From Owenia fusiformis (lineage: Eukaryota > Annelida > Polychaeta > Sabellida > Oweniidae): a DNA stretch of 64,000 bases. Below the pieces are notes generated by a model that was given only the letters and a program-made list of their open reading frames with translations, was not told where the DNA came from and did not search any database. Positions 43,501-64,000 of this stretch are shown here, piece by piece. The stretch lies in the NCBI GenBank assembly GCA_903813345.2, contig CAIIXF020000002.1, positions 16,006,467 through 16,070,466 on the forward strand, given 5' to 3'. The position numbers and the translations under genes were made by a program. The stretch's first letter is position 1; each line of letters starts with the position of its first letter.

Positions 43501-46500
43501 CTTCATGGATATCCAGGCACATAATCTTGTATCATAATTCTCTACTTGATATCAAACAATGTTTTACATTGTTAGATGATGCCTCCTAGGGTCCCTAATA
43601 TACAGTTTTAATAATACACTGCCAAATAAGCCTCTGGGTGTTTGTTTCATTACCTGCTTTTGTGGAAATCACATTTTTCAAAGTGTTGCATTGACGTCAT
43701 CTTATGCTGATGGGTGTGTGTATACTGTACATGCATGCGTTCATCTGTATGTCTGCATGTATGGGCTGGTATCATACACATTTTGTCGTCACACCTGGAA
43801 AATGGCTTTCCCGTTCAACTTAAAATTGTAACAAATGCAAGAGCAGAGAAATCCCAAGATCTGATAAGATTTTGGGCATGCTGCATTTTTGATAAAAAAA
43901 GTATAGTATTTTAATCACTATGTGCAATGCACAAATTTACTGTCCTGATATACGAAGGTAATTCTCAATTGCTGGTTTCATATGTGCTTTCAGGAGGTCC
44001 AGAAATGAGAGTGAGAAGCTTCGTAGAGACAAGCTGAACATGTACATAGGAGAGCTGGCCAAGATGGTGCCCCTCGTCATGACGGCACAGAAAAAGATGG
44101 ATAAATCTAGTATACTACGGCTAACTGTCAACTATCTCAAGGTTCATAGAGGTATATATAGAAACATTTATTCTTATAAAACTGATATAAAATGGCTTCC
44201 CCAAAATATTTTTCAGGCAACTGTTCTTGGAATATGCAACCAATATGCGGTCAAGGAAAAACAAATATTCTTATTTAAAGGAACATTAGAGATGAGAGAA
44301 TAAATGTTTGACATAATTCTATAAAGCGTGGCAATGTCAACCTTATAATCTAAATTTTATTTCCTGAAAAAGATTGAGATATTCTGGTTAATATAGAAGT
44401 TATCATTGAAGATTCAAGATTGAACTTAAAATTCAGAACGAACTGCGTTTATTTTTTCAGCGTTCACTTTTCGGTGTACATTTTTTTATGTTCTGAAATA
44501 TTTTTGCTTGACAATAATCAGAAAAATGTGTATCTGTGTGACATATTCTGTCACGTAAAAACGGTTGTGAGTTCAATTTCTTCAGCAACATATATCGCAA
44601 ATACGCAAATTGTGGGACAAATATGCAAATTGCGGGACAGTTGAATGGCCTGGAACTGTTACAGAGTTTTTTTGGGAATGTTTTGGAATGATGAGAACAA
44701 AAATAATTGTGGCAATTCTTTTAAAAACCTTTCCTCAACTACCTAGTCTTCTACTTCTTTTGAAATAACATAATATGAGTATATAGTATGAGTCTCCCAT
44801 GAGTATTTTATGTCTTTAAAACTTAAAAAAAGGTTCTATAATAGCAGAATGTGGTTATCTTGTCTAAGAATGTTTTGAAAATGTAAACCTAATCTAGTTG
44901 CCAATGGCAATCATTAATCCAGATTTTTTCATGTTTGTTTTTTTAATATCTTTCTTTAGTCAGATTATATATGCCTTAGGTGAAATAAAGGGTCGTTGTT
45001 CTTTAAACATTTTTCTATTATGAAATAATAATTGAAAGTTCATTTTTATCTTGGGGAAACATTAGTTTGACATTCCATAAAATCTTTTTCACTTCTGATG
45101 TGAAATCAGATACTAAATAGTGCAAATGCCTTAGGTATAGCATGAAGGTTCATTGTCACACATTGCTATTTTTAAATGTTTTTGAATGCAATAATGATCC
45201 CGTGAGACAAAAGCATTGATTTTTCTCATATTCATTCAACAACAGATATCTGGTCTTTTGTACCATCTCATTCTTTTTCAAAGATTTCTCATTCTTTCCC
45301 CCTCTATTTTGCACATAGTGTTGACATTGTTCCATTTTATGTACATAGAGTTGGAGGAATATATCTTGCAGTGTTAATTATCCCAATGAACACATCCATC
45401 TGTCAGTGCATCCGTCTGTCTGTTAGGAAAATAATACAAATGCAAGAAAACAGATTTTATTCATGCTAAGATCATATTCAGTTGAAACATAGATAGTTTC
45501 ATGCAAAAAAATTCAAGGTGGCTTCAATTTTTAAAATGGCAGGAATTTTTCATGAAAATCCAAGATTTTCATTTCCAACCAATGTAATGAGTATTACTAT
45601 TTGAACCTTTAATAGTATATCTATGGATTATATATTTTGTGTTTTTCCCTATCCCAAGGGGCTGTATATGAGAAATACATGTACAGTGTATATATAGGTT
45701 GAGTCAAAAAAAGAAAAATTTTCATTAATTTCGACATCTATAAAAAGTATCACGTTAATATACTCAAAGAGTAGTAGTGTTTTTATGTTAAAATAACAAA
45801 TTGATTTTGTTTTGCAATATTTCGATTTATTCTGTAAATCTTTTTCAAGCATAAATATTTTTTTTTGCTTGAAAAAGATTTACAGAATAAATCGAAATAT
45901 TGCAAAACAAAATCAATTTGTTATTAACCTTCTGCATGCTAACTTAATTCAGCAAATATATCCCACGCGACTGACTTATTTTTCAAAGAGTGCAAAAATG
46001 ATATGCCTGGACTAAATAATTAATATCTCAATAACTACTGAATGAATCTGGATAAAATTTTCACAAAGAGAAGATACATTGGCCTGGCTCATGAAAAAAA
46101 TGTTCTCATGAATTTTTTACTTAAATAAACAGGACTGGGCATAAATATACCATGAATACTCCTCCGGAATCCGCCGCTTCGCCCCTGTGGAGATTCAACG
46201 TCTGGTCAGAATCCAAAACTGAATTTGCAGCGATCAAATGTTCATTTTTCAGTTCAGAAAATATTCTAGTTTCTATTTTCGATGACCATTATCGGCTTCC
46301 AAGAGCCTAAAGAGCTCGAAATCGCGATCCATTTCCTCCACATGTACGTTGTGATCGTATTTGACCGCCATTTTGTACGATTTGTTCACTAAAAACGACT
46401 TAAACACTGTTTAAATCGTTGGATTAAGAAATATTCTTCGAAACATCGCCATTTATAGGTCAACAGGAAGTCCCCACGTAAGGACTAAATAAATCGGGCA

Positions 46501-49500
46501 ATCTGATTGGATCATAAGACCGGCGGGAAAAAGTTAAGTTTTTGAAAGTTTAAATTCGACTGGAGTCGCCGGCAGTTGCCGGGGATTGTTAAGCACGGGC
46601 GACTACGCTCGCCGGTAGCATGCTAAAGGTTAATATACTCAAATGAAAGGTATTTTAGAGGGGATCGCAAATGTTGTATCATTTTTCTGAATTTTCCCTT
46701 TGGAAATCTACCTGGTGTTGGAATTCTCAACAGTTTGGAAATCTCTTCTTATATTTTATTCCGTGATAATTACATTTAGACCTTCACAGGCCAAAAATAT
46801 CATATTGATGTGTTCTTATACCATTTATATTATAAAATAAAGCTAAAAGTAGGTTTTTACAACATGGGAGGTCATTCAAAGTTTTCTATAGTATTATTGA
46901 GGAGATGTAAGATCACAATGTTGTTATATCATTATTTTGAAGATCCAAACGTCTATCTAATAATTCACGAATTCAAAATAATAAGTAGATCTCTTAAAAG
47001 TATGGCTTTATAAGTCTATAATCTAAGGATTTCTATTCATGAATAATTTGTTCATTGGGATTTGCTACTCTGTGCAGATGCCATTTTCTAGTTGTGGATC
47101 TTAATGCGGGTTATCCACCTTGGAATAACTGAACAATCGTTGCTTCCAGTGTTGTCACAATATACTATTATAAGACATCAATATGTCAGCAATTTCTTGG
47201 AGTAAACATTGAAGAAATATCTTAGCCTTTGGCATATACAAACAAATGTGGAAAGACAATTGAATCACTTGATATCTGAAAAGGAACTGAGCAATAAGAA
47301 AGGCAATACATTTGCATGAAAATGACACGAGAAAAATGATTTTTTGCAGATTTTAGTTTTTTCAAACAATTAATGGTTCTAACATATATTAATGCTATTA
47401 TAATACATAGTGATACATCGATTAATTGTTCCAACACAATTCACTACAGTAGTCACACTACTAGGTGCTTTTATATCTAGGTTACCCTTTAATGTTTTAC
47501 CTGATCAACATAATTAAGTAATCAATAGATTAAGTAAATCCACCAATCTGTCTGCCTGGGAAATAACTCATTTACTAGATTGAGGAGATGATTCTTTTGT
47601 TGGAAAGATGTATTAGTATATTGGTAGATAGTTTTACGTAATTCTTTTTTTTTCAAGATGCCTACCACTTTGAGAAAAGTTTCTCATTTCCTTCCAAATG
47701 CATATTACTGCTTGAAATTTTGTTAGTTTATCCATAAAATATATCCTTTTCACATATATTCTTTGTTTTTCTGGCTTGTCCCTAAGGAGCTATATACAGG
47801 GTGATGAAAACAAATGTCTTAATTTTTTGATAAGTGCCATGGAAATTTCAGAATGACCACCCGATGTGGGAATTCCCAGGAATTAAGAGATCTCTTGTAT
47901 CAATTGTATTTTAAAGTACACCACAATTACTCAGATACGAGTAGGTAGTTACCAGTTTCGCCACCAGGTGGCTGATTGGGGGAAATAACATGGCAGGGAA
48001 TTACAAAGTTTAACTTGAATATTCATCAGTTTTAGTGGTTCACTTTTCATATTACCCTTATGTATCTGATAGTTATACAAATTATAATATGTCCAGTACA
48101 GGAAAATTTTATCTGCCCAACACAAGAAAGGATATTTCACTTTTTGTGATTTTACAACATGGGGTCTATGGGGAATCTCCCCGACCTAGAAGTCACATTT
48201 TCAAAGAAAATTATCAAAACCACATTTCTATATGCAATTTTACATGTAGATTCAAAACATGACATCACTTTGACTGAATTTTGAATTTTTAATGACGTAA
48301 ATCAAGATTACTTCTGCTCGCACCTAGTCTATTATTCTTATTGATGCCCTTTCAGCTACCCAAACTTGATCTTTTACTGTATTGCATTATTCTCTTTCTA
48401 TTGCAGAGCTGAAGGGGAACAAGAAAGACATTGACTGGAAGCCACCTATCATCTCCAATGACAACTTGTCAGAACTTCTGCTGCAGGTAAGTCATCTATC
48501 ATATACCATGACAACTCATTACTTATGATATGTGCAAGACATCTAGCCATCAGATCACCTATGAAATTGATGATCCGAATGTCTTCTCTAAAGATAGTGA
48601 AAATGAAATATTAAATCACTCTATATCTATCATTAACAGTATTTCTCCAGGATTAAAGCACACACCTGAGATTTTGGCTTGCCCACCCACCTGACAGCCA
48701 AGATATGGGGGTCCATTTGCACCCACTTGAAAATGAGATAAATCACGAAATTTGGCATATTTTGACCATTTTTGTTCTGAATTGTGAAAATGAGAATTTT
48801 GCACCCACTTGAGAAAAAATCCTGGGGAGAAACACTGAACTACTCCATAGATCACTTACACTTATTTATCAATACTCCTGAACATTTCTAGTCTCTCTTT
48901 GCTCATTTTATCTCACATTTTGATCTGATGTTATTACAAAATTGGCAGTTTTGATTACCATTGGCAAACTCAGGCTCAATTTATAAAGGGCCTTGTGGGA
49001 TAAGACAAATAATTCAGACAGTGATATTTTGGTTGGTAATCCATTTGATCCATACATATTCTCCAAGAAAAGTGGATACAATAACAATAAATTATGATAA
49101 TGACAATGAAGGACAATCAGTTTTTTATTATTTAATAATGTTGATATTATTTTTTACCATACCAGGGCTTGCATTAACGGCGTCCTGTACATGTTAAGGA
49201 CTCAAAAAACATTTTCACACTTTTTTTAAAAAATTGGGTCCTTGGGACTCACAAATTTTCTAACCTAATGCAAGCGCTGCCATACTTTAGCTTTCTTCAA
49301 GCTCAAAAAATATGCACAATCTCAGATATCATTGATTGAAACCATTTGCCTATTTATGGGGCCTTTCTGGAAATTCGGAAAAACTTCAACTACAACAGGC
49401 TACCTTGTTTTGATTTGGTGAAGGAATCACATGAAAATGAAGAGCTCTCAGTTAGCACAGTGAATGATGAAATTTTCAGGATTATGACCTGTTAGACAGT

Positions 49501-52500
49501 TATATATTGAACATTTTGGAATATAGACCGTCATTGAATTATGTGAAGGAGTGCTAAAAAGATCAGTCTTAATAATGTTTATGATGAAAATATTGTTGCT
49601 AGATACATGTACCATCAGTATTGTGCTGATTCTGATTTACGAGTTTGTTTCATGATGTAGTGTTTACATGGGAAGAAAACCAATTTTTCAGAGGATAACT
49701 TAAAAATATCTGTCTCCATTTCTTTCGCTTTATGGATTTTTCATGTTTGAAAGTAATTTCAATTTGTTAACCATGATGGTGTTATCTTGTAATAATATTG
49801 GTTTGAGAATGAATATTCTTTGATGATATAAGTAATAACAAATCCTCATTAGAGCAAACACTTGAACTATGAAACATGATATTCTGCCCTTTTTAATAAC
49901 TCACATTAATTTTGACAATAAAATCTGGGAACTTTTGTTGTTAAAATGGTTTTAGAAAGTAATTATTCCTTTTGAAAAATAACTTTTAAAAACACTAATT
50001 TTGAGAAATACTGTAGTAATTGATGATAAAAATGCTGAAATTTAATCAAACTGGTCATGTTTCAGTCTCTGAATGGGTTCCTACTGGTGACTTCTAGGAA
50101 AGGAATGGTGATATACGCTTCAGAGGAGCTGACAACTAGCCTGGGCCACAATCTGGTAAGCACTTCATGGTTAATACAAAAATGTTCTATGTTCAGCGAT
50201 TCATGGTTGATCCAAATGTGTTCTATGTTCCGCAATTCATGTTTTTTTGTTTTTTTTATTAGTTAGCAATTCATGGTTGATACAAAAGTGTTCTGTGTTC
50301 AGCAATTCATGGTTGATACAAAAGTGTTCTATGATCAGCAATTCATGGTTGATACAAAAGTGTTCTGTGTTCAGCAATTCATGGTTGATACAAAGGTGTT
50401 CTATGTTCAGCAATTCATATTTGATACAAAGGTGTTCTATGTTCAGCAATTCATATTTGTAACAAATGTGTTCAATGTTCAGCAGTTCATATTTGATACA
50501 AAGGTGTTCTATGTTCAGCAATTCATATTTGATACAAAGGTGTTCTGTGTTCAGCAGTTCATATTTGATACAAAGCTGTTCTATGTTCAGCAATTCATGG
50601 TTGATACAAAGGTGTTCTATGTTCAGTAATTCATATTTGATACAAAGGTGTTCTGTGTTCAGCAGTTCATATTTGATACAAAGCTGTTCTATGTTCAGCA
50701 ATTCATTGTTGATACAAAGGTGTTCTATGTTCAGCAATTCATATTTGATACAAAGGTGTTCTATGTTCAGCAATTCATATTTGTAACAAATGTGTTCAAT
50801 GTTCAGCAGTTCATATTTGATACAAAGGTGTTCTATGTTCAGCAATTCATGGTTGAAGCAAAGGTGTTCTATGTTCAGCAATTCTAGGTGTTCTGTGTTC
50901 AGCAATTCATGGTTGATACAAAGGTGTTCTATGTTCAGCAATTCATATTTGATACAAAGGTGTTCAATGTTCAGCAGTTCATAGTTGAAGCAAAGGTGTT
51001 CCATGTTCAGCAATCTATGGTTGATTCAAAGGTGTTATGTGTTCAGCAATTCATATTTGATACAAAGGTGTTCTATGTTCAGCAATTCATATTTGATACA
51101 AAGGTGTTCTATGTTCAGCAATTCATAGTTGAAGCAAAGGTGTTCCATGTTCAGCTATCTATGGTTGATTCAAAGGTGTTATGTGTTCAGCAATTCATAT
51201 TTGATACAAAGGTGTTCTATGTTCAGCAATTCATATTTGATACAAAGGTGTTCAATGTTCAGCAGTTCATGGTTGATGCAAAGGTGTTATATGTACAGCA
51301 GTTCATGGTTGATGCAAAGGTGTTATATGTACAGCGATTCATGGTTGATACAAAGGTGTTCTGTGTTCAGCAATTCATGGTTGATACAAAGGTGTTATGT
51401 GTTCAGCAATTCATATTTGATACAAAGGTGTTCTATGTTCAGCAATTCATATTTGATACAAAGGTGTTCAATGTTCAGCAGTTCATGGTTGATGCAAAGG
51501 TGTTTTATGTACAGCAGTTCATGGTTGATGCAAAGGTGTTATATGTACAGTGATTCATGGTTGATACAAAGGTGTTCTATGTTCAGCAATTCATGGTTGA
51601 TACAAAAGTATTCTATGTTCAGCAATTCATGGTTGATACAAAAGTATTCTATGTTCAGCAATTCATGGTTGATACAAAAGTATTCTATGTTCAGCAATTC
51701 ATATTTGATACAAAGGTGTTCAATGTTCAGCAGTTCATGGTTGATGCAAAGGTGTTATATGTACAGCAGTTCATGGTTGATGCAAAGGTGTTATATGTAC
51801 AGCGATTCATGGTTGATACAAAGGTGTTCTATGTTCAGCAATTCATGGTTGATACAAAAGTATTCAATGTTCAGCAATTCATGGTTGATACAAAGGTGTT
51901 CAATGTTCAGCAATTCATAATTGATACAAAGGTGTTCTTTGTTCACCAAAGTAAGTATAATGAAGGCAAGCCCATTCACCAGATTTACTCCAATCTACTT
52001 GTGTATATTTCAATCATCTTCCTCAATATTTTAGGCGGATACGGTGGGAAATTCTGTGAAGAAGTTTGTCCATCAAGACGACCAGAAGTATTTTCTTAAG
52101 CAGCTAGAACTCCCCCGGGACAAATATGCTATAAGTAAGTCTGATTTATATAAATGAGCAAAAAATTAGAGGTGTCACGGTCCAAAGAAAATTCGGTACG
52201 GTATGGAACGGTAGAAATGGTCTCAGGACACTGTACTTTCGGAACGGGACAGAACATTAAAGAAAAATGATGCAATGTCTGATGATGGCAGTTTCACTTT
52301 CAGTTTCACTTTTCAAAATCATATTCAGAAATAAAAAACGTCAATTCAAATCTAATATAACGCATCTGCCGCGAATGTAATCGGCATTTCACATAGTCTG
52401 CATGGTGTACTATCACCAATTCGTTTACATTGTGATATACCAATATTTTATTCTTAATGTATGATATCATGATTTTAAATACTATAACATGTTTTAGGCG

Positions 52501-55500
52501 CGTCTATTAATTGTGCCATCATTCCAAAGATGTAGTGTCTAAATGATAGATAAATAAATAGATAAGATATAAGAGAGCCTTTTATAGATTTGACATTGTA
52601 TAGGTGTAAACCTGATTGGTATGTTAGCATTCAAATAAGAACCCTCTAATTTTGCAATTTCAGACCATGAATCCAACAGGCACAGATCATTCTATTGTCG
52701 TATGTTGAATGTGGTGAACAGACAGCAGTTAGGTCATTATGAACCGATGCACGTCGTAGGACACATCCGCATGATGACATCATTTGATACAGGTAGCTTT
52801 CAATTATATTTTTAGCTTGTCTGCTAGCCTAAAATAGGTGTCTGAGCAATTCTTCATTTTTAGCTGTTATGATTGCAATACAAACTTTGAAAATATGAGA
52901 CATGTGACATTAAAGCTTTAACTTTAAGTTCAGTTATTCGTTTTTTATCGAACAATTGTTATATTCTGGTATGATTATAGGAATGTAAAATGAAATTAGC
53001 CTGTATGTTTACCATGTATTTATCACATGATATAGGTTCGCTAATATCTTTCTCATCCATCAGCATTTTTCTCAATATTTTCTCGATCTGCATTATTTTA
53101 GTGAATGGATGTTTATGAATGGTAATTTTCCCGCAGTTATCATTCCATTAAAAAACTGAACTGAGCAATTTTTATGAACCAAATGAACCACTCGTGGCCA
53201 ATGATGGTCAGAGCTCTGCAGTTTCTTACCCGTACTTTGTACTCCACTTCCAAAGAACAATTAATTTAAACATCATATATGCCCATTATGGAATCATAAA
53301 TGTTTGCCTTGTGAAATGCATTATACATATATCCCCAGCTCATATTAAATAAAAAAGGTTTGCTTTGTTAAGTGCACACTTTCTTCACAGGTACACTATT
53401 TTCTGCATTTCACTTTTTGCAGTTTAATAATCATTTTCTATATTCTTATAGATGAAGCTGCAGACATGATGGACAGTTGTCTGATTGCAGTTGTCAGGAA
53501 GGTTCACAAGGAAAGCATCCGTGAAATCTCAATATTAGAAATGTCAAAGAATGAATGGATCACTCAGCATAACTTGGAAGGCAAAATATTCTTTAGTGAT
53601 CACAGGTCAGTGTTCATATGTGTTGTTCGTATGAAAATCATTGTTCATTGGTCATTTTCAAGTAACAATAGAACTGAATATTAACTGATTGATCTATTTA
53701 AAGCAGTATATTGATGATAAATAACTTGCATTGTTTGTTATTTTGATTAGTTTCAACTCATGAGGTCTAGTTACTTACCACACTTGTGGTTCAGTTATCA
53801 TAAAGTGGTACATGATGGATGTAATACTGTTTAGAAATTTCCATAAGAATTACTGACTGATTATATTGGCTAAGTTGCTATAGAAACTCCTTTCCCTGAA
53901 AACATAAGTAATGATATATGAACATAAGTGATGCTGCCAAGTTGATTTTCTTAATTGATTATGATTGGGAGGTGGAGGACTTTGTTGTTTGAGTCTGTTC
54001 CATTTCATGTAAATAACCCGGGGTAAATTATAGATCTTCTGTTCCCCAGTGCTTGTTATATCTAGAATATGAGTAGTCAACAATTGGACATAAATATGAC
54101 AAAGGGGTTTAACAGAACTGGATGAACATAGACTGTTGTGTTGTGCAAATAAGCATGATCTCTCTGACTATAATACTGCTTATACGTTACCTGCTAGGAA
54201 TGCTTGTGCAATATATATTAACTCTTTGCTTATTAATCTTTTTAATTTAGGTACCCACCAGCTTGCTTCCCAACTACTGCTTGACAACTGTTGCTTTGCA
54301 TTTATTACTAGGCAACTATTATTATGCAACTATAACTAGGCAACTGTTACTATGCAACTATTACTAGGCTTCTGCAGTTAAAGGTGCTTGATTATTACCA
54401 CTAATGCTTACTCTAATACTCACTTAGTTTAAAATACACTATGGATTTATTTTGTACTCATTTTCTGCATAAACCTTTTCTGTGCTCACTTAAACATAGG
54501 TCCACTCTGTAGTAATTTAGTGCATTGGTCCACTCTAATTGCACTAAGTAATAGTATAGACCCACTCTGTACTTATTTAGTGTCACATCATGGACTTTAT
54601 TTTGGAAATGTCATGGACTTCTGTTTTGAAAAAAATGCAAGGAACCCAACCTAATTTTTATAACTAGTTAACTCTAGTTTTATGCACTGCTTTAATATTT
54701 AATTTTATGTTTATTTCTCACCTCTATGGTCTATTATTACTAAACGAAATAAATGCCATCAAATTGCTCTTATTTCTTCCTCTTTGTGCTCAAGCTTAAT
54801 ATCTTCGCCATATTGCAAAAGCCTTCTATTATCTAAAAGTAACACCTATCTATCCACAGTATCTATCTGCCTCTCTTTAAAGTAATCATCCACATATTAG
54901 CTCTTTGTTGAAATTGAACAATCAAATTATTTAAGCTACTTCAGAATTCTTTTAACACACTGAACAAAATTGAAACAATTAATTTTAGAATTCATGCACC
55001 ATGTACATTTTCTTAAAGTAACACCTTTCTTACCAACCTAGGCTGTTTCTACAGTACTTTCATTTTCTAGAAGGCCAGTAGTGTTTTTTTCTTTTTTCTG
55101 CTTTTGTTTTTCTTTCTGTTTGCAAGATTATTTGCCTTTGACTACTTGACAGTCAATGGAGAAGTCCATTGGGCTCATGAACAATTTGAGATAGAAACAG
55201 TCTGAAAATATGCATAAAATATTCTAAAAATGTGTAAATCACGTATTTTCATTTAAATTTGCATAATGACACTGATTTGTTATGTCACCTGGTGACATAT
55301 TGTTAGTCTTTAACTTTTTTTGTGGATGGGGGTTGGTGTTCAGCTTCTCTCACAAATGGCAGGTGGTGACATTTTGCATGTTAATACCTTGGCCATTGCA
55401 TGACCTGTGGTCTAGATGACCAACTTAATTAATTCCAGTGAAAGAAGATATGAGTACATTTGCTTTCAAAAGTATGTTGATATGCATTACCTCCTGATTC

Positions 55501-58500
55501 CTTATGTAACTGTATGTCAGTAAATAATATATGGTTTAAAGCAAAGAGAAGGTATTGTAAGTTGGCAATTATGAACAGTAAACTACGAGTTAAGACGATG
55601 TGAAAAGGTTATAAGTTGTGCACTGTTATACCCCCGAACTGTGGAGGGAATATTGCATATGAGAAATGATCTAGTTGTGAAACTGAATGCCTTTTTATCC
55701 AAACACCTGTCCTTTAAGAAAACAATATCTTTGAACATGATCCAATTACTCCCTTATAAAATGACCTCTCTGTAAAGAACACACATACAAATGTGTTCAC
55801 CATACACTGGTTTTACTGTATATTTTAGTGGTTTAGTGATGATGTTAACTGATGTTGTGTGACTTTTAGGACATCACCACTGACAGGCTATCTGCCCTAT
55901 GAGTCCAATGGAATGCTGGCCTACCAGTTCCTGAAACCGGAGGATGTGAAATGGGTGATCAAACGGCATCACCACTGTAAGTTTATAGGCAGGCAGGCGG
56001 TGATGGAACCCAAGCTACCAAGGCTAACCTTTGCTTATATACTAACATTTGTAAATTACTTTGCATTTAGTTCAATTAATGCTGTGTATCTCACCATCTT
56101 TGAGTATGATCATGGTTAACACTTAAAACTCCCAATTAGTTGGTTATGTGAACTAACAGTACAGCTGTATGATAAATCTGATTTACTCAACACTAGGTGT
56201 TACTAGGGTGCTTTCAAAAAAAAATTAAGGAAATAAGGCCTTCATTTTTGACGAGAAAATCATGAACTGTCCAACCATGGTTTGTCTAGAAATGAGTTGT
56301 TCAATTTCTCATGCTTTAAGATGACCTCTAGCAATGACATTGTGCCTGGCTTATTAAGTCTTCATTTCCAATATTAAACCTGTTGAAACTGTAGTAGTGT
56401 AGTAAGTCATGTAAGGTGAAATCAATACTGTGCACTGTATACACTGTATAGTGAGTCCTTTATGGTATTTAGAATCATAGACGGCCATTCATCATGTCTC
56501 TGTATCATGGATGGTGAGAAAACACTTGCATTGATTACCTACAGATAAAGCCCAATATGTAATTCTGGAAAATATCATATTATCCTGTATGGGTTCCCCA
56601 GGCATAATTCTGAATTGATTGTCCATATATAGAACATCATACTGGATGAATCAGTATTATCCCATTGAATGAAGTTCAAGGGGATATAGAGAATGGCTCT
56701 GTATGTCTGGCCATCTGTCTTCCCTGGCAATAACGCAAATACTGACCCAATATTGTTTAAATTTTAATCAGTATAGTATACTAATAGGGTACTTAGTAGA
56801 TGTAAGTTTTGCTTGAAAGTCAATTTTCAAAATAGCCACTGGTTTCATAAAGATTGTCTAACAACTTGTTACTGATTAATTTGAAAATGTTATTATTTAA
56901 AAAAACTTGGTGGCCATCTTGAAAAATGGTGGCTGTTACAAAATGTTGTACGATTTTTGCCGTAGCAGGAAAAGTAGTGGCGCGATATTTGATATGTGAT
57001 ATATACATATGATCTTATGACCCTTTGGTTAATAGATGGTCATTTTCAACAATTGGCCGCCATTTTTAGGTTTTTATATGTGACTATTAAGAAGCATATT
57101 CCAATTTCTTATGAGAATTTGGCTCATAGGCAGCCATTTTGATAAATGATGGCTATTTTCAATAATATGATTTTACATTTTGCTATAAGGCCAATGGACG
57201 AAAACTGGAAAAGTAGTGGAGCAATTTTATTTATATTTTTACTTATTTTTTACTATTGTTTTTGTATTGTAAATATGTAAAAGCATCATACACTGTTTAA
57301 TGATAATTTGGCATGGCAGCTAGCAATGGCTGTTCAATGGGATTTGCTACGCCTTGGCGTTACTGTTATCTAGTTCATATAGGGGAACTCATATACCAAA
57401 CTATATAAGCCCCGTACTAAATTTCGAATAAATGAGTCACATATTGGGCTCCAATAAATTGCTCATCTACAGTATTGCCCCAACTCAAATCTTTAAAGAT
57501 GTATTCCCAGTAGCACATGTAAGGGACATTGACTAAGTACATCTTTAAAGATTGATTGCTTAAGCAAATATGCTAATGTCAATTGCTTGCATGCATTTAC
57601 TAACACAAGGCTTCCAGTGATGTCTTCTACACAGATGCGCTGCTCGCTGCATGTTTTTTTTCTTTATGTTCTCTTCTGCCATATGCTACAAACTTGGCCT
57701 CACTTGGAGAGTAGGACAGGGGTGTAGCTCTTGATAATTTTACATATAATGTGTTAGACAATTATCTGGTACAATTACTTGGTATATTGAGTGCCAAGTT
57801 GGGTTATAAAATCATTAAATAACACTGCATGGTAATATTGCGCTATTATCCCACCCTAAGTGCTTATATCATTGTATAATAGCACCGTATAACTGCAATA
57901 TAAAACCAACACTCATCGTATACAACTCTTGAGAACAATATACAACTCCTGGATAGCATATACAACTCCCGGCAGTGTATACAACTCTTCGTCTTGATAT
58001 ACAACTGCTCAAATAGGGTGGGATAATAAGATCATATAATGGTTGATTCTGTATATCGTTATTCTCTCGTGAGTATATGTATATGATATAGTCACTTGTT
58101 CCGTTCGGTCACTTGTGAATATATCATATGATCACTTGAGTATAAACATGATATACAAAATCAACCATTTTATAACCTCATATTATACAATGGTATACCA
58201 TATGAATAGTCAATTTGCAGTGTAATATAACACAGGAATAGGCTTTGTATAATTGTTATACAGTAGAATAACAAAGGAATTTGGGATTGTGCACTGTTAC
58301 ACAGTAGTAATCAATGGGCTATACTTGTATTGCACTGTTATGCAGTAATATAGCCAACCAATGGGGAATGTTATACTGTTATGCAGTAAGACAACAAATC
58401 AATGGGCTATAATGCACTATTATGCAGTAATGCAGCTTATTAATGGGGAATGTTATACTGTTATGCAGTAAAACAACAAATCAATGGGCTATAATGCACT

Positions 58501-61500
58501 ATTATGCAGTAATGTAGCTTATTAATGGGGAATGTTGTACTGCGTACAACAAATCAATGGGCTATAATGCACTATTATGCAGTAATGTAGCTTATTAATG
58601 GGGAATGTTGTACTGCAGTAAAACAACAAATCAATGGGCTATAATGCACTATTATGCAGTAATGTAGCTTATTAATGGGGAATGTTGTACTGCGTACAAC
58701 AAATCAATGGGCTATAATGCACTATTATGCAGTAATGTAGCTTATTAATGGGGAATGTTGTACTGTGTACAACAAATCAATGGGCTATAATGCACTGTTA
58801 TGCAGTTATGTAGCTTATTAACCTCTTGACTACCTGGAGTGACAAGATTTCTCGTCACCTCAGAAATGACCTTTAAACCCAGAGTGACGAGAAAATCCAT
58901 CATAAAAATTTTCACTCAAATTATTCTTATTTGAACATTTTCATCCAATTTACACGAAAATTGTTTTAAAATGTGTAGAAATGATCTCTGAAATGATCTC
59001 TGCCGTCTAATTTTACTTAATTGAGCATCTCAGGTTGTAAAGGTTAGTAGTAAAATGCCAAAAGATGGCAAAAATGAAAAATTCTCTGGTTTCAACCGAT
59101 TTTAGAGCCTTGGATTAAGGAGGTTAATGGAGAATCTTGTACTGTTACACAGTAGTACTGCAGTAGTACAACAAATCAATGGGCTATATTGCACTGTTAT
59201 GCAGTAATGTAGCTTATTGATGGAGAATGTTGTACTGTTACACAGTAGCACTGCAGTAGTACAACAAATCAATGGGCTATATTGCACTGTTATGTAGTAA
59301 TATAGCTTATCAATGGGAAATGTTGGTAAGATTTAGCTTGACTCACTTGTCTTGAAATCAATAGATATTTTCCAAGCCCTCTTATAGTTTAAACTTACAA
59401 AAATTATCAATATTAAATAGGTTTTCATTGAGCATCCTATTTGAATTATTAAAGGCCAAATAAAATAGATCTTCTATTGGCAAAGTTAGATTATATCCCC
59501 TATAGCCATGGATGTAATTAAATACAGAAGTGCTTAATGGCTGAGAAAAATATTTGTTTTTGTTTTGTCAACTGGAGCTGACCACATTGTGCCCAGTGTG
59601 TAACCAAGCATAGCTTAATATACATATATCAATACCATTAAACTGTGCATTATGGCTTGGTATACCAATGAGTCATCACACTGTATGCAATAATAACAAT
59701 ATTAACCTAATATAAACAAACTAAGGACTTAATATACAACTCAAAAATATACTGTGTCATATTAGAAAAAAATGTCTGATGAATTAAATATTGAAGATAA
59801 GGTAAACATAGAGAAGAGTATGAATATGCTTGCTATTAAAATCAAAAAAAAGAAATTTATAAAGCGGACGTCAAGTAAATTGGAAGAATCTTATAAGTGG
59901 GAATGAGGGGAAACTTAGATTATTTAAACAACTTAAAACACACTTTGGATTTGAACAATACCTTTCAGAAACAACATTTTCAAATGCTAAACATCTCACT
60001 AGATTACGTATAAGCGCCCACAATCTAGAAATAGAGAGAGGCCAATATACAAGACCCATTACTGATTTAAATATTCGATTTTGTAAAATATTTAAGGACT
60101 TGGTTAAAGAAGATGAACCACACTTTTTATTCAAATGTAAACAATTGGAGTATATTAGAAAATCTCATATTGAAAAACTTGAAAACCTGTATAGTAACTC
60201 TAAAAACATGAATGACCATCAAAAGACAATTTTTCTACGAGTGAGGGGAACATATTAAAAGAATCTGCTGACATGATAAATTATCTAATGATTGGTAGAG
60301 CCAGGATTTTCATATCAAAGTAATATTTGTTATGTCATTTGAAGCATGTAATCATATTTTCTTTACTTTATTGCTATTTTTACTATTAATGAAAATTGTA
60401 TGTTGGATGTACGTTTGGCCCTAAAAGGGGCATCAGTACAAATAAATCCTATTATATACAAATACCAATGACATTACACTGTATCCATTTTTGCCTTAAT
60501 ATGGTCTTTCTTTTAATCTACCCTGGATAGCAATAATATCTAAAGTATGTGAAATGTATTATATGAAAAAGATGTTACAGTCAGTTTTACCAGACTGGAT
60601 TCCCTGTCATGGATGAAACCTGACCCGTATCATGGATTTGATCACAACTGACAACCCCATGACATACGTATTTCATAAGACCTTTATTTTTCTCTCAGAA
60701 TTAGCCAGTCTGGCTACATGCCTGTGGATGTGGTTGGAACTGATGTATATAACTGGATTAGCCCCATAGACAAGGAATGGGTTCTCAGAGCTCACATTAA
60801 AAGTAAATTTGGTTGTATATGTGTTCTAATTGGACTCTCGTTTGAAGTTATATTGTAATCAAGATGTATCTCTAACATAGTGGGTTGTTGTCAGTGAAAA
60901 CTATACAGACCCTTGTTGTATTGAGAAGTAATTTCACAGGCCTCCTCTGTACATGAACTTGTATCATTTGAGAACTATTTCCCCATGCTCTATCTACATA
61001 TCTACATGTGAACCCCAGCTCCCCCTTGGAAAAAGCTGGCCAGGGCCTGTGTTGTGTTTCAGAACTGTATTCCTCATGCTCCTGCTTTACTTGTTGTATT
61101 TGAAAATTAGGTTCACATGTCCCATCTGTACTTTAAGAAGTAATTTCACTGGCCTCTTATGTGTTGGTTGTATTTTAGAAGTACTTTTCCAGGATCATGG
61201 GTTGATGACCACTCAACAATCCCATGAAAAAGTTCATTATGTGAATGACTGAAAAAACAACAAAAATACGACATCAACAACTGAACATAAATGATTATCA
61301 TTAACGAGATAAGGACACACCAATTTTTACATGATGTGACATACCATTATTAATCAACCCATCTCTTTAAAATTAAAATACTCTGATTGAGAAATTAATT
61401 GAGATGTCACTGAAGATCTCTTTAAAAAGAACTTGAGTATATCAATTTTTCTCATCTTGAGACGGACAAAAGTTAAACAGGGTTGACATTAGTTTGAAAT

Positions 61501-63377
61501 AGAGATGGCCATTTACCAGAGTTTGTTCAGAACTATTCAGGAGTGAAGCTCTTGTTAATTTTACAAATAATGTGTTAGACAAATATATTGAGTGTCAAGT
61601 TGGGTCATAAAATAACACTGCGTGGTCATATTGCACTATTATACAATAGTATACCTTATGAATAGTCAATTTGCAGTGTAATATAACACAGAAATAGGCT
61701 ATTTGTATAATTGTTATACAGTAGAATAACATAGGAATGGGGGATTGTGCACTGTCACACAGTGGTATAACAAATCAATGGGCTATACTTGTATTGCACT
61801 GTTATGCAGTAATATACCCTTTCAATGGGGAATGTTATACTGTAACACAGTAGTAAAACAAATACATGGGCTATAATGCACTGTTATACAGTAATATACC
61901 CTATCAATGGACAATGTAGTACTGTTACACAGTAGTATAACAAATCAATGGGCTATAATGCACTGTTATGCAGCAATATACTCTATCAATGGGGAATGTA
62001 GTACTGTTACACAGAAGTAAAACAAATCAATGGGCTATAATGTACTGTTATGCAGTAATATAGCCAACCAATGGGGAATGTTGTACTGTTATGCAGTAGT
62101 ACAACAAATCAATGGGCTATAATGCACTGTTATGCAGTAATATACCCTATCAATGGGGAATGTAGTACTGTAACACAGAAGTTAAACAAATCAATGGGCT
62201 ATAATATACTGTTATGCAGTAATATAGCCTATTAATGAGGAATGTTGTACTGTTATGCAGTAATATACCCTATCAATGGACAATGTAGTACTGTTACACA
62301 GTAGTACAACAAATCAATGGGCTATAATGTACTGTTATACAGTAATATACTCTATCAATGGGTAATGTAGTACTGTTACACAGTAGTAAAACAAATCCAT
62401 GGTCTATAATATACAGTTATGCTGTAAAATAGCCTGTTAATGGGGAATGTTATACTGTTATGCAGTTGTACAACAAATCAATGGGCTATAATGCACTGGT
62501 ATGCAGTAATGCAGCTTATTAATGGGGAATGTTGTACTGTTATGCAGTTGTACAACAAATCAATGGGCTATAATGCACTGTTATGCAGTAATATAGCTTA
62601 TCAATGGGGAATGTTGGTTAGATTTAGTTTGACTTCATTGTACTTTGGTCTTGAAATCAATATATATTTTCCAAGCTCTCTTATAGTTTATACTTAAAAA
62701 GATAATCAATATTTAATAGGCATTATGTGTGAATTATTAAAGGCCAAATGAAATAGATCTTCACTTGACACTATAAGTTATATTAGATCCCACATAGTCT
62801 TTGATGTAGTTTAAATACAGAACTGCTTAACCACTGATTGTTCCTGGAATGACAGAAAAAGATCATTTCATTGTTAAGGAACATTGTTTTTTAACTGTAG
62901 CAGATCGCGTGGGACCCAGTGTGCATGCAAACATAGATTAATATACATATATCAATGACATCACATAGTGTGCAATTATGGCCTAATATAAAATACTGTA
63001 CCACAATGAGATGAAGCCAAACAGCTTTCATTTCTAATAAGATAATATAATCAAATACATATTACTATGTTATTTATTTCATATGACATTTGAACAAACT
63101 AGATCTGTTGTGAGATATGGTATTCTGTAACTTCTTAATGGATAGCAATGTTACAGCAACTGGATTCCCAGTAATGGAAGAAACCTGATCAGGATCATGG
63201 CTTGATCATAACTGAAACCCCATTAAACCTTTCATAGAACTATAAGTATAAATCATATCAGTTTTTCTCTCAGAATTAGCCAGTCTGGCTACATGCCTGC
63301 GGATGTGGTTGGAACTGAAGTATATAACTGGATTGAACCCATGGACAAGGGATGGGCTCTCAGAGCTCGCTTCAAAA
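28509..63377 (+). CDS. Met: Methoprene-tolerant-like bHLH-PAS transcription factor, 5' part of the gene (continues past the window)
   Basis: Exons: 28509-28555, 30198-30278, 43994-44151, 48407-48486, 50066-50155, 52035-52134, 52664-52792, 53452-53605, then one of 55870-55976, 60699-60802 or 63274-63377; every junction keeps frame and about 315 aa are encoded. The bHLH (about residues 42-95) has the basic region RSRNESEKLRRDKLN, helix 1 MYIGELAKMVPLV and helix 2 KKMDKSSILRLTVNYLKVHR. This is closer to Met/germ-cell-expressed (juvenile hormone receptor) than to CLOCK or BMAL. PAS-A runs from about 123 (NGFLLVTSRKGMVIYASEEL) through FVHQDDQKYF to MHVVGHIRMM. PAS-B begins near 238 with CLIAVVRKVHKESIREISIL and NEWITQHNLEGKIFFSDHR. 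As a family, such proteins dimerise and bind E-box-like DNA; Met PAS-B binds juvenile hormone in insects, but a ligand in this lineage is unknown. A CLOCK/NPAS2-like identity is the main alternative. Confidence 0.72.
29222..29990. repeat. About 115-bp tandem repeat in intron 1 of the Met-like gene
   Basis: Five or six diverged units containing gaacttntgagaacttgtagatgattttgaaaaa, ttggtcaatttgaagcaag and gacctttttgac. One unit is interrupted by the small element at 29657-29773. The apparent 83-codon frame here is repeat translation. Confidence 0.8.
29657..29773. mobile_element. 117-bp MITE inserted in the tandem repeat
   Basis: Ends cacgcggtcctaactt and aagttaggaccgcgtg are perfect 16-bp inverted repeats. 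The flanking ctata (29652-29656 and 29774-29778) is a candidate 5-bp target duplication. The interruption of a repeat unit supports recent insertion. Confidence 0.75.
31514..32144. mobile_element. 631-bp hAT-type non-autonomous element with perfect 8-bp target duplication
   Basis: Ends tagtggtgggactcgtg and cacgagtcaatcgttgctccacta are imperfect inverted repeats. gtatgtta flanks it exactly on both sides (31506-31513 and 32145-32152). It contains cgagta words near each end. No transposase is present. Confidence 0.85.
33410..33760. repeat. Dispersed repeat, copy 1
   Basis: About 300 bp, including ttcgccaccaggtgac, ggttcacttttcatattacc and gattttacaacatggggtct, recurs at 47930-48320 in the same orientation with few changes. 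Transposon class unknown; both copies are in introns of the same gene. Confidence 0.85.
33798..34175. mobile_element. 378-bp hAT-type element
   Basis: Ends tagaggtgtcacgga and tccgtgacatctcta are inverted repeats. Flanks taattgat (33790-33797) and gtattgat (34176-34183) match at six of eight positions. Internal gttccga words recur. A related left end occurs at 52167. Confidence 0.75.
34804..34979. mobile_element. 176-bp TIR element
   Basis: Perfect 10-bp inverted ends ggcgtagcgc and gcgctacgcc, with further cgtacc/ggtacg complementarity inside. No open frame of significance. Probably a MITE of unknown superfamily. Confidence 0.6.
40001..40275. repeat. 20-bp minisatellite, 14 units
   Basis: Fourteen units of tattggcacttttcaatgtg in strict 20-bp register without indels, varying mainly at c/t and g/a positions. 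In intron 2 of the Met-like gene. The apparent 82- and 141-codon frames are repeat translation. Confidence 0.9.
40980..41535. repeat. 33-34-bp minisatellite
   Basis: About 16 units of tatagcagtaatctccccat plus cattaaagcaagta. A shorter block of the same repeat follows at about 41905-42060. The 370 bp between them are unrelated and hold a 16-bp palindrome catacggcgccgtatg (41660-41675). Confidence 0.9.
42070..42225. repeat. Dispersed repeat sharing sequence with 48625-48845
   Basis: Shared words include gtgaaaatgagaattttgca and ttggcatatttt in the same order. The related copy lies in intron 4. It probably represents an unclassified transposon fragment. Confidence 0.65.
42248..43089. mobile_element. 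842-bp TIR element
   Basis: Begins cttaaaggccccatgtaaag and ends in the inverse, ctttagacggggactttaag; the terminal repeats pair with three mismatches. The interior is rich in t/a runs with no coding potential. The target duplication was not resolved. Confidence 0.6.
44430..44655. repeat. Partial second copy of the element at 27167-27671
   Basis: Shares the run of gtgacatattctgtcacg, caaatacgcaaattg and gcgggacagttga words and the terminal ggcctg. It lacks the 5' half and the G run. Confidence 0.75.
45792..45925. repeat. Perfect 60-bp inverted repeat with 14-bp loop
   Basis: The left arm 45792-45851 (starts aataacaaattgattttg) is the exact reverse complement of the right arm 45866-45925. 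The loop is t-rich. The right arm ends at the TTAA that bounds the neighbouring element. Apparent frames on both strands are arm translations. Confidence 0.95.
45928..46629. mobile_element. 702-bp TTAA-flanked element (piggyBac-like MITE)
   Basis: TTAA at 45924-45927 and 46630-46633 bounds ends ccttctgcatgctaa and the inverse tagcatgctaaagg. TTAA duplication and CC-starting ends fit piggyBac. The interior is less AT-rich and has no transposase. gttaatatactcaaa occurs both at 45754 and at 46629. Confidence 0.65.
47930..48320. repeat. Dispersed repeat, copy 2
   Basis: Second copy of the repeat described at 33410-33760, with a few small deletions. It ends about 90 bp before the exon at 48407. 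Confidence 0.85.
48625..48845. repeat. Dispersed repeat, copy related to 42070-42225
   Basis: Same order of the aatgagaattttgcacccac and ttggcatattttgac words as at 42.1 kb, extended on its left by gcccacccacctgacagc. In intron 4 of the Met-like gene. The rest of this intron (48846-50065) shows nothing notable. Confidence 0.6.
50158..51945. repeat. 36-bp minisatellite, about 49 units, in the PAS-A intron
   Basis: Units of gttgatacaaaggtgttcta plus tgttcagcaattcatg in 36-bp register, starting two or three bases after the splice donor at 50156. Variants (atatttg / atggttg; ttctatg / ttatatg) recur in blocks, so higher-order duplication occurred. Because 36 is a multiple of three, several frames on both strands stay open for up to 263 codons. 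None has other coding features. Confidence 0.95.
52167..52260. mobile_element. Partial hAT-like left end
   Basis: tagaggtgtcacggtcc followed by ggtacggtatggaacgg resembles the left end and interior of the element at 33798-34175. A matching right end was not found. It lies in the intron after exon 52035-52134. Confidence 0.45.
53606..55869 (+). other. Intron before PAS-B exon A
   Basis: Contains a short 16-17-bp repeat of gcaactattactagg type at 54270-54370. No other PAS-B-like exon or transposon was recognised in it. Confidence 0.5.
55870..55976 (+). CDS. PAS-B variable exon A of the Met-like gene
   Basis: 107 nt after acceptor gacttttag and before donor gtaagttt. It completes the split Arg codon of the preceding exon (AG|G) and ends one nucleotide into a codon (T). 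It encodes TSPLTGYLPYESNGMLAYQF then LKPEDVKWVIKRHHH. GYLP...G and the following PEDV are the usual PAS-B GY.P.E..G / HPDD region. This is the most canonical of the three alternatives. Confidence 0.75.
57842..58190. mobile_element. Foldback insertion in duplication unit 1
   Basis: Two nested inverted pairs are visible: ctattatcccaccctaag with agggtgggataataag, and tataatggttgattctgtat with atacaaaatcaaccatttta. Between the first pair is a short atacaactc repeat. The corresponding place in unit 2 (about 61630) lacks it. Confidence 0.65.
58200..59330. repeat. Satellite array 1 between exons A and B
   Basis: About 80-120-bp units containing caatgggctataatgcacta, ttatgcagtaatgtagctta and tggggaatgttgtactg. 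The array is interrupted by the TTAA element at 58822-59123. The minus-strand 61-codon frame at 59102-59287 is repeat translation. Confidence 0.9.
58822..59123. mobile_element. 302-bp TTAA-flanked insertion in the satellite
   Basis: TTAA at 58818-58821 and 59124-59127 brackets a segment starting cctcttgactacc and ending ggattaaggagg that is unlike the satellite on either side. The interior has two gtgac...gag words. Short, weak terminal inverted repeats; piggyBac-like by target site only. Confidence 0.55.
59750..60475 (+). pseudogene. LINE (non-LTR retrotransposon) 3' fragment
   Basis: A plus-strand frame from about 59919 reads LRLFKQLKTHFGFEQYL, then HLTRLRISAHNLEIERGQYT and EDEPHFLFKCKQL. 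This is the C-terminal zinc-knuckle-like tail typical of invertebrate LINE ORF2 proteins. It ends at TAA after FLRVRGTY, and a +1 shifted frame continues as KESADMINYLMIGRARI. The 3' tail has ggccctaaaaggggcatc and an aaataaat end. The reverse transcriptase is missing, so the copy is dead and 5'-truncated. Confidence 0.7.
60699..60802 (+). CDS. PAS-B variable exon B of the Met-like gene
   Basis: 104 nt after acceptor ttttctctcag and before donor gtaaattt. It has the same phases as exon A: it completes AG|A (Arg) and ends one nucleotide into a codon. It encodes ISQSGYMPVDVVGTDVYNWI then SPIDKEWVLRAHIK. It aligns to exon A over GY.P....G....Y....P.D..WV, one residue shorter overall. There is no stop codon, and the splice sites match those of exon C almost exactly. 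Confidence 0.7.
61650..62620. repeat. Satellite array 2 between exons B and C
   Basis: Same family as array 1, here mostly as units of about 100 bp with tatgcagtaatataccctat, caatggggaatgtagtactg and ttacacagtagtaaaacaaa. Units differ more from each other than in array 1, where blocks near 58430-58760 are almost identical and so more recently expanded. Confidence 0.9.
63274..63377 (+). CDS. PAS-B variable exon C of the Met-like gene
   Basis: 104 nt after acceptor tttttctctcag and before donor gtaaattt. It encodes ISQSGYMPADVVGTEVYNWI then EPMDKGWALRARFK, differing from exon B at 8 of 34 residues with no stop or frameshift. It lies in the second copy of a tandem segmental duplication (exon starts 2575 bp apart). 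Further copies may exist beyond the window end. Confidence 0.68.
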
Positions 63378-63489
63378 GTAAATTTGGTTGTATCTGTCTT
63401 ACAACTGGACTCTTCAAGTTATATTGTAATCAAGGTGTATCTCTACTACAGTGGGTAGTTGTTGTCCATCTGAAGCTTAAAAACCTTTG

Positions 63490-64000
63490 TAGTATTTGAA
63501 AAGTAATTTAACAGGTCCCTCTATACATGTTGCATTTGAGAACCAATTTAATAGCCCTCTTCTGTACTGTTGTATTTGAGAAGTAATTTCACAGGTCCCA
63601 TCTGTACTTGTTGTATTTGAGAAGTAATTTCACAGTTCCCATCTATACTTGTTGTATTTGAGAAGTAATCTCACAGGTCCCATCTGTACTTGTTGTATTT
63701 GAGAAGTAATTTCAGAGTTCCCATCTGTACTTGTTGTATTTGAGAAGTAATTTCACAGGTCCCATCTGTACTTGTTGTATTTGAGAAGTAATTTCACAGG
63801 TCCCATCTGTACTTGTTGTATTTGAAAAGTAATTTCACAGGTCCCATCTGTACTTGTTGTATTTGAGAAGTAATTTCACAGGTCCCACCTGTACTTGTTG
63901 TATTTGAGAAGTAATCTCACGGGTCCCATCTGTACTTGTTGAATTTGAGAAGTAATCTCACAGGTTCCATCTGTACTTGTTGTATTTGAGAAGTAATTTC
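63490..64000. repeat. 41-bp minisatellite running off the window end
   Basis: At least 12 units of tgtatttgagaagtaatttc plus acaggtcccatctgtacttgt. It starts about 110 bp after exon C. Degenerate copies of the same unit follow exon B at 60920-61170, so the seed sequence was present before the duplication and expanded only in this copy. Confidence 0.92.

Follow-up and report, generated by a model that had tools for sequence, protein, structure and literature searches.

A candidate mutually exclusive exon cluster in the PAS-B domain of a Met-like bHLH-PAS gene of the annelid Owenia fusiformis

In the available excerpt of an atlas of human mutually exclusive exon clusters (PMC5740500), such clusters are made of neighboring homologous exons that have similar lengths, the same reading frame, GT-AG borders and no stop codon, and breakage of the frame by joint inclusion is accepted as one of the mechanisms that enforce the choice of a single exon. 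Exons of this kind also give coding variety to a receptor, insect nicotinic receptor alpha6, as the consulted part of PMC5111602 describes. For Methoprene-tolerant (Met), the accessible part of PMC9392760 describes isoforms that differ in the first exon (D. maxima) or the third exon (R. prolixus) and mentions no PAS-B cassette, and a crustacean survey, in its consulted portion, reports no sign of isoforms from alternative splicing in Multicrustacea, subject to confirmation (PMC12897451). According to the excerpt of PMC4498814, the response to JH III rose in Daphnia when one Thr, at the site known as V297, was replaced by Val. We searched open-licence PubMed Central (most subscription papers lie outside this collection) and judged the matches listed by their titles and the starts of abstracts; none describes exons of this kind for PAS-B, either in Met or in another bHLH-PAS gene, and the sole listed match that pairs ‘mutually exclusive exons’ with ‘PAS-B’ is a hypoxia review.

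Here we describe three versions (cassettes A, B and C) of one exon in a Met-like bHLH-PAS gene of O. fusiformis; we think it likely that they form a mutually exclusive exon cluster within PAS-B, the putative ligand domain of the encoded receptor. The window, that is, the whole stretch of DNA that was analysed, contains 64,000 nucleotides (contig CAIIXF020000002.1 of assembly GCA_903813345.2, forward-strand positions 16,006,467 to 16,070,466); exons past position 64000 were read from 50 kb that were added to it. A preliminary description of the window had delimited the cassettes and exon N that precedes them, and its coordinates, AG/GT borders, split Arg codon, phases and residue counts were all reproduced when the sequence was read again. 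The exons of the gene are:

43994-44151, plus strand: bHLH exon (Pfam HLH, 48.2 bits)
48407-48486, plus strand: predicted exon between bHLH and PAS-A, from a splice/phase scan (tttctattgcag/gtaagt)
50066-50155, plus strand: PAS-A exon 1, from splice borders and phase
52035-52134, plus strand: PAS-A exon 2, from splice borders and phase
52664-52792, plus strand: PAS-A exon 3, from splice borders and phase
53452-53605, plus strand: exon N, common first part of PAS-B, ending in the first two bases (AG) of a split Arg codon
55870-55976, plus strand: cassette A, 107 nt; encodes 35 residues and parts of two split codons; donor gtaagt
60699-60802, plus strand: cassette B, 104 nt; encodes 34 residues and parts of two split codons; donor gtaaat
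63274-63377, plus strand: cassette C, 104 nt, 34 residues, donor gtaaat
65276-65423, plus strand: exon D, common PAS-B exon 3' of the cassettes, past the window end (window numbering extended)
65693-66429, plus strand: exon 3' of D, beyond the window
67638-67939, plus strand: exon 3' of D, beyond the window
69239-70189, plus strand: exon 3' of D with the stop codon, beyond the window

The exon at 48407-48486 is the sole candidate that survived the splice/phase scan, which also required the motif expected at this place. The joined protein scores 24.5 bits with Pfam PAS (cut-off 22.6), and the matches to Pfam HLH, PAS, PAS_11 and PAS_3 together give the layout bHLH, PAS-A, PAS-B. The genome contains a single full match to each of exons N, D and bHLH (for the bHLH exon, the runner-up by score is 44% identical), so the gene is single-copy and duplication of the whole gene is ruled out. 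The PAS-A intron contains a long minisatellite (50240-51917) with overlapping open frames of more than 200 codons on both strands.

Each cassette supplies the third base of the Arg codon at its start and one base of the next codon at its end, and exon D opens with the two bases that are required after any of them; all three have AG/GT borders and a length of 2 mod 3. Of the eight ordered combinations of A, B and C between N and D, the three single choices are open (841, 840 and 840 aa when the count begins at PAS-A exon 3). The remaining five (none, three doubles and the triple) stop early; the A-B and A-C joins create a stop codon (T/AA), which ends the frame of A+B, A+C and A+B+C at that join. 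The claim that these are phase-matched alternatives for one segment of PAS-B was therefore borne out: the frame permits exactly one of them per mRNA. The cassettes have the features by which mutually exclusive clusters are recognized, that is, they are adjacent and homologous, similar in length, identical in phase, bordered by GT-AG and without stops, and skipping or joint inclusion yields no full protein in 5/5 combinations. We infer that for each mRNA the spliceosome picks a single cassette (A, B or C) and places it between N and D; mRNAs with no cassette or with more than one would be spoiled by the frame and probably lost through nonsense-mediated decay. The resulting isoforms would share their DNA-binding, PAS-A and C-terminal parts and the strands of PAS-B, and would differ in the helical wall of that domain's pocket, probably giving them different preferences for ligand or partner.

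The cassettes also carry the signal of the PAS fold. With Pfam PAS_11, the protein scores 60.4 bits with A, 47.9 with B and 44.8 with C; seven controls score 24.1-26.8 bits (N+D alone, 24.6; six shuffled cassettes, 24.1-26.8, of which two are at or above the cut-off of 25). Each cassette thus completes the PAS fold above the controls; the preliminary description had noticed a PAS-B pattern in all three. We also searched the six-frame ORFs of at least 15 aa in 113,933 bases with a PAS-B profile made from five segments of solved structures and four paralogue exons, none from the Met-like gene. The top three matches are B (15.6 bits, E 0.0025), A (15.5, 0.0027) and C (13.3, 0.013), and the fourth (8.9 bits) is inside a PAS-A exon; the E-values are modest, as befits a length of 35 residues, and judged from the sequence the three cassettes are more than chance. 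With B as the query, only B, C and A are found up to E 10 among the best-scoring candidates, a search in which weak ones may be missed.

Residues of Met that affect JH binding by mutation, or are predicted to, are listed in the consulted part of PMC9392760. We placed these sites by spacing, counted from T254, which was matched to WI(T)QH in exon N. By this placement, the exchanged segment overlaps published pocket positions: the cassette spans 5/14 of the positions listed for mosquito Met, two of the five mutation-tested (Aedes I418, V429, F437, V446 and L450, of which V429 and V446 are Tribolium V280 and V297). At these five sites, A has T, S, F, V, H, B has I, V, W, V, H and C has I, V, W, A, R, compared with I, V, F, V, L in the mosquito, the one-residue gap in B and C being placed from the alignment; thus, the V297-equivalent residue is Val in A and B and Ala in C, and the V280-equivalent residue is Val in B and C only. 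In exon N the sites T254 and I262, both mutation-shown, and H405 fit, and T and I are kept. In exon D, read with a shift of one that we chose to align the strand, the mutation-shown sites L318, T330 and C347 are changed from L to M, T to S and C to S. If all three cassettes are spliced, the receptors made from a single gene would have Val, Val and Ala at the V297 site, and other pocket positions would change along with it.

To place the cassette among its relatives, we motif-scanned the seven PAS_11 places in the genome, and the upstream exon equivalent to the cassette was displayed in four, in genes that we take to be CLOCK, BMAL, PER and ARNT (these names, and SIM below, come from our reading of the translations). 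In all four of the exons that were delimited the length is 107 nt and the phase and borders are the same, which marks the cassette as an exon of long standing in bHLH-PAS genes. In the other three scanned loci (L006, L008 and L012) it was not displayed, perhaps because it lies outside the stretch or was missed. One of these, L012, is the SIM-like gene; its match continues through the 3' border of the cassette in one open frame, so this border is not universal.

Cassettes A and B are identical at 11/34 aligned residues (32%), and 8 of those 11 use a different codon; to judge from these codons, silent change is saturated and the residues are retained. Borrowing of the cassette from another gene was rejected on a comparison with the four paralogue exons, to which B is no closer (18-29% identical) than it is to A (32%). 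B and C share 76% of their residues and lie in a duplicated segment of several kb that includes intron (about 57.7-61.2 kb and 61.5-63.8 kb); a haplotype artefact is ruled out because the five intron stretches that were compared differ by 14%. The three versions of the exon that had been announced are thus present, but B and C are recent copies, so the old versions number two. The DNA shows the order of the duplications: an ancestral PAS-B helix exon was duplicated long ago to give A and B, and B was duplicated again recently, intron included, to give C. Minisatellite arrays with a period of ~41 bp (58330-58821, 61712-62609 and 63487-64000) are located within and around the B and C copies and may have helped this second duplication. 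The B copy also contains a 131-aa ORF (59863-60255), presumably a retroelement remnant from the way it reads, for which there is no counterpart among the blastn pieces of the C copy.

The comparison of B and C bears on whether C is a working exon. They differ at 11/104 nucleotides, in 8/34 codons, and all eight are nonsynonymous; in the 26 codons with the same residue there is no difference (NG86: dN 0.132, dS 0.058, the latter stemming from multi-step codons). The introns differ at 101/712 positions in five stretches that we picked outside the arrays (3.9 to 20.4% per stretch; vs the exon, Fisher p 0.36), and the probability of zero silent changes among 11 is 0.08, of at most one 0.31. Because substitution in the exon is not significantly below the intron rate and 8/8 codons are nonsynonymous, purifying selection on C is unsupported. 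The exon has 0 indels vs 4.4 expected from 30 in 712 intron columns (P about 0.01; alignment-dependent), and this, with the nonsynonymous changes, implies that the frame has been kept as the residues drift or diversify. There is slightly less than an even chance that A and B are the real mutually exclusive pair and C is a by-product of recent tandem duplication that is drifting toward a dead exon: its changes accumulate at about the intron rate, it is without the V297-equivalent valine, and the arrays that flank the copies perhaps aided their duplication; against this, C has no stop and no indel, its splice sites and phase are intact, it still scores 44.8 bits with PAS_11, and the nonsynonymous excess fits diversification too. 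On this record, C may be drifting or diversifying, and decay is possible.

The preliminary description called the gene a Met-like receptor, and the domain layout agrees; by its pocket residues it cannot be told apart from HIF2a or NPAS3, so we dropped these residues as proof of Met (of the 14 Aedes pocket positions, A matches 6, B 7 and C 6, and HIF2a matches 7, NPAS3 6 and mouse CLOCK 5). It is unlikely, but worth keeping in mind, that the gene is some other CLOCK/ARNT-like bHLH-PAS factor in which the cassette alters the choice of partner and not hormone binding; besides the indiscriminate pocket, the best solved-structure match for PAS-B is CLOCK (3.4e-24 with A, 3.2e-20 with B) and for bHLH it is BMAL1. 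The gene is not the CLOCK orthologue of this genome, since C2:16210671-16211921 (minus strand) is far closer to mouse CLOCK, its cassette exon being identical to the mouse at 27/35 residues, counted by hand. Besides this CLOCK, the genome has genes that we read as BMAL, ARNT, PER and SIM, which also speaks against that reading. Met orthologues have been reported from an annelid and two molluscs, as the consulted part of PMC5127642 states. By elimination among these families, the gene is quite likely to be Met.

That only A is used, B and C being unspliced relics of exon duplication, is improbable. The donors of B and C appear by eye to be weaker than that of A, and the change between B and C looks neutral; against this, B has kept its frame, both splice sites, its phase and its PAS signature across a distance at which silent change is saturated. 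We simulated neutral decay by substitutions only, starting from A and not from the ancestor. At the full A-B distance, 82/4000 runs stayed stop-free with AG/GT and 0/4000 retained a profile score of at least 13 bits; at half that distance the counts were 370/4000 and 14/4000. These simulations suggest that B has been under constraint for most of its history. Finally, B and C could be poison exons that, after A, give an immediate stop (T/AA) and lower the receptor level via decay, as the stops at the A+B, A+C and A+B+C junctions would allow, but this is very improbable because such exons need no PAS fold in frame after N, and B keeps one. Returning to the mutually exclusive cluster, we consider it very likely that A and B matter and possible that C does.

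Other loci in the genome are also of note. In the ARNT-like gene, the bHLH exon is present as two tandem versions (L013 8410-8550 and 9058-9198; G000:C10:1093686-1093826 and 1094334-1094474, minus strand) that are 158 and 161 nt as delimited, both 2 mod 3, with AG/GT borders and donors gtttgt and gtaaca. They are identical at 39/50 residues (dN 0.17; dS saturated and not computable), and their joint inclusion stops early; from these features they look like another mutually exclusive pair in a bHLH-PAS gene, under better constraint than the first and located in the DNA-binding domain. The same gene contains, from L007 3618 to L013 3525 (G000:C10), a tandem array of a 92-bp unit with 66 core matches, including the true exon; the unit (96-97% match) contains the 3' splice site and the first part of the ARNT PAS-B exon, and the array, which precedes the true exon, possibly provides dozens of decoy acceptors. 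Elsewhere, G000:C6:27033687-27048438 contains three over-cut-off matches to the erythrocruorin linker family of annelids, of which one is interrupted by a stop; mollusc haemocyanin, tried as a marker of phylum, gave no match, which is uninformative. A wider reading is conceivable, although we regard it as doubtful: one Met gene might yield several hormone receptors through spliced alternative pocket walls, so that the response to the same sesquiterpenoid, or to different ones, would vary between tissues or stages, and the splicing of domain exons might be a wider habit of the bHLH-PAS genes of this animal, as in the constrained, phase-matched ARNT bHLH pair.

Compared with the described systems, the O. 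fusiformis cluster differs from those in the human atlas in its place, the PAS-B domain of a bHLH-PAS receptor, and in being known here from DNA; insect alpha6 differs from it in being a nicotinic acetylcholine receptor and not a transcription factor. CLOCK resembles it in being the best solved-structure match for PAS-B and in having the same exon borders; it differs in being a separate gene of this genome with one cassette within the 6 kb examined. Methoprene-tolerant/Gce shares the bHLH, PAS-A and PAS-B layout, and the T254, I262 and V297 sites are present with A or B. The cassette would offer a testable natural experiment on the evolution of ligand choice and suggests a layer of splicing in sesquiterpenoid signaling outside arthropods. 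What we describe is a real and well-formed candidate: its kind of exon cluster is known, and its place is new and functionally pointed.
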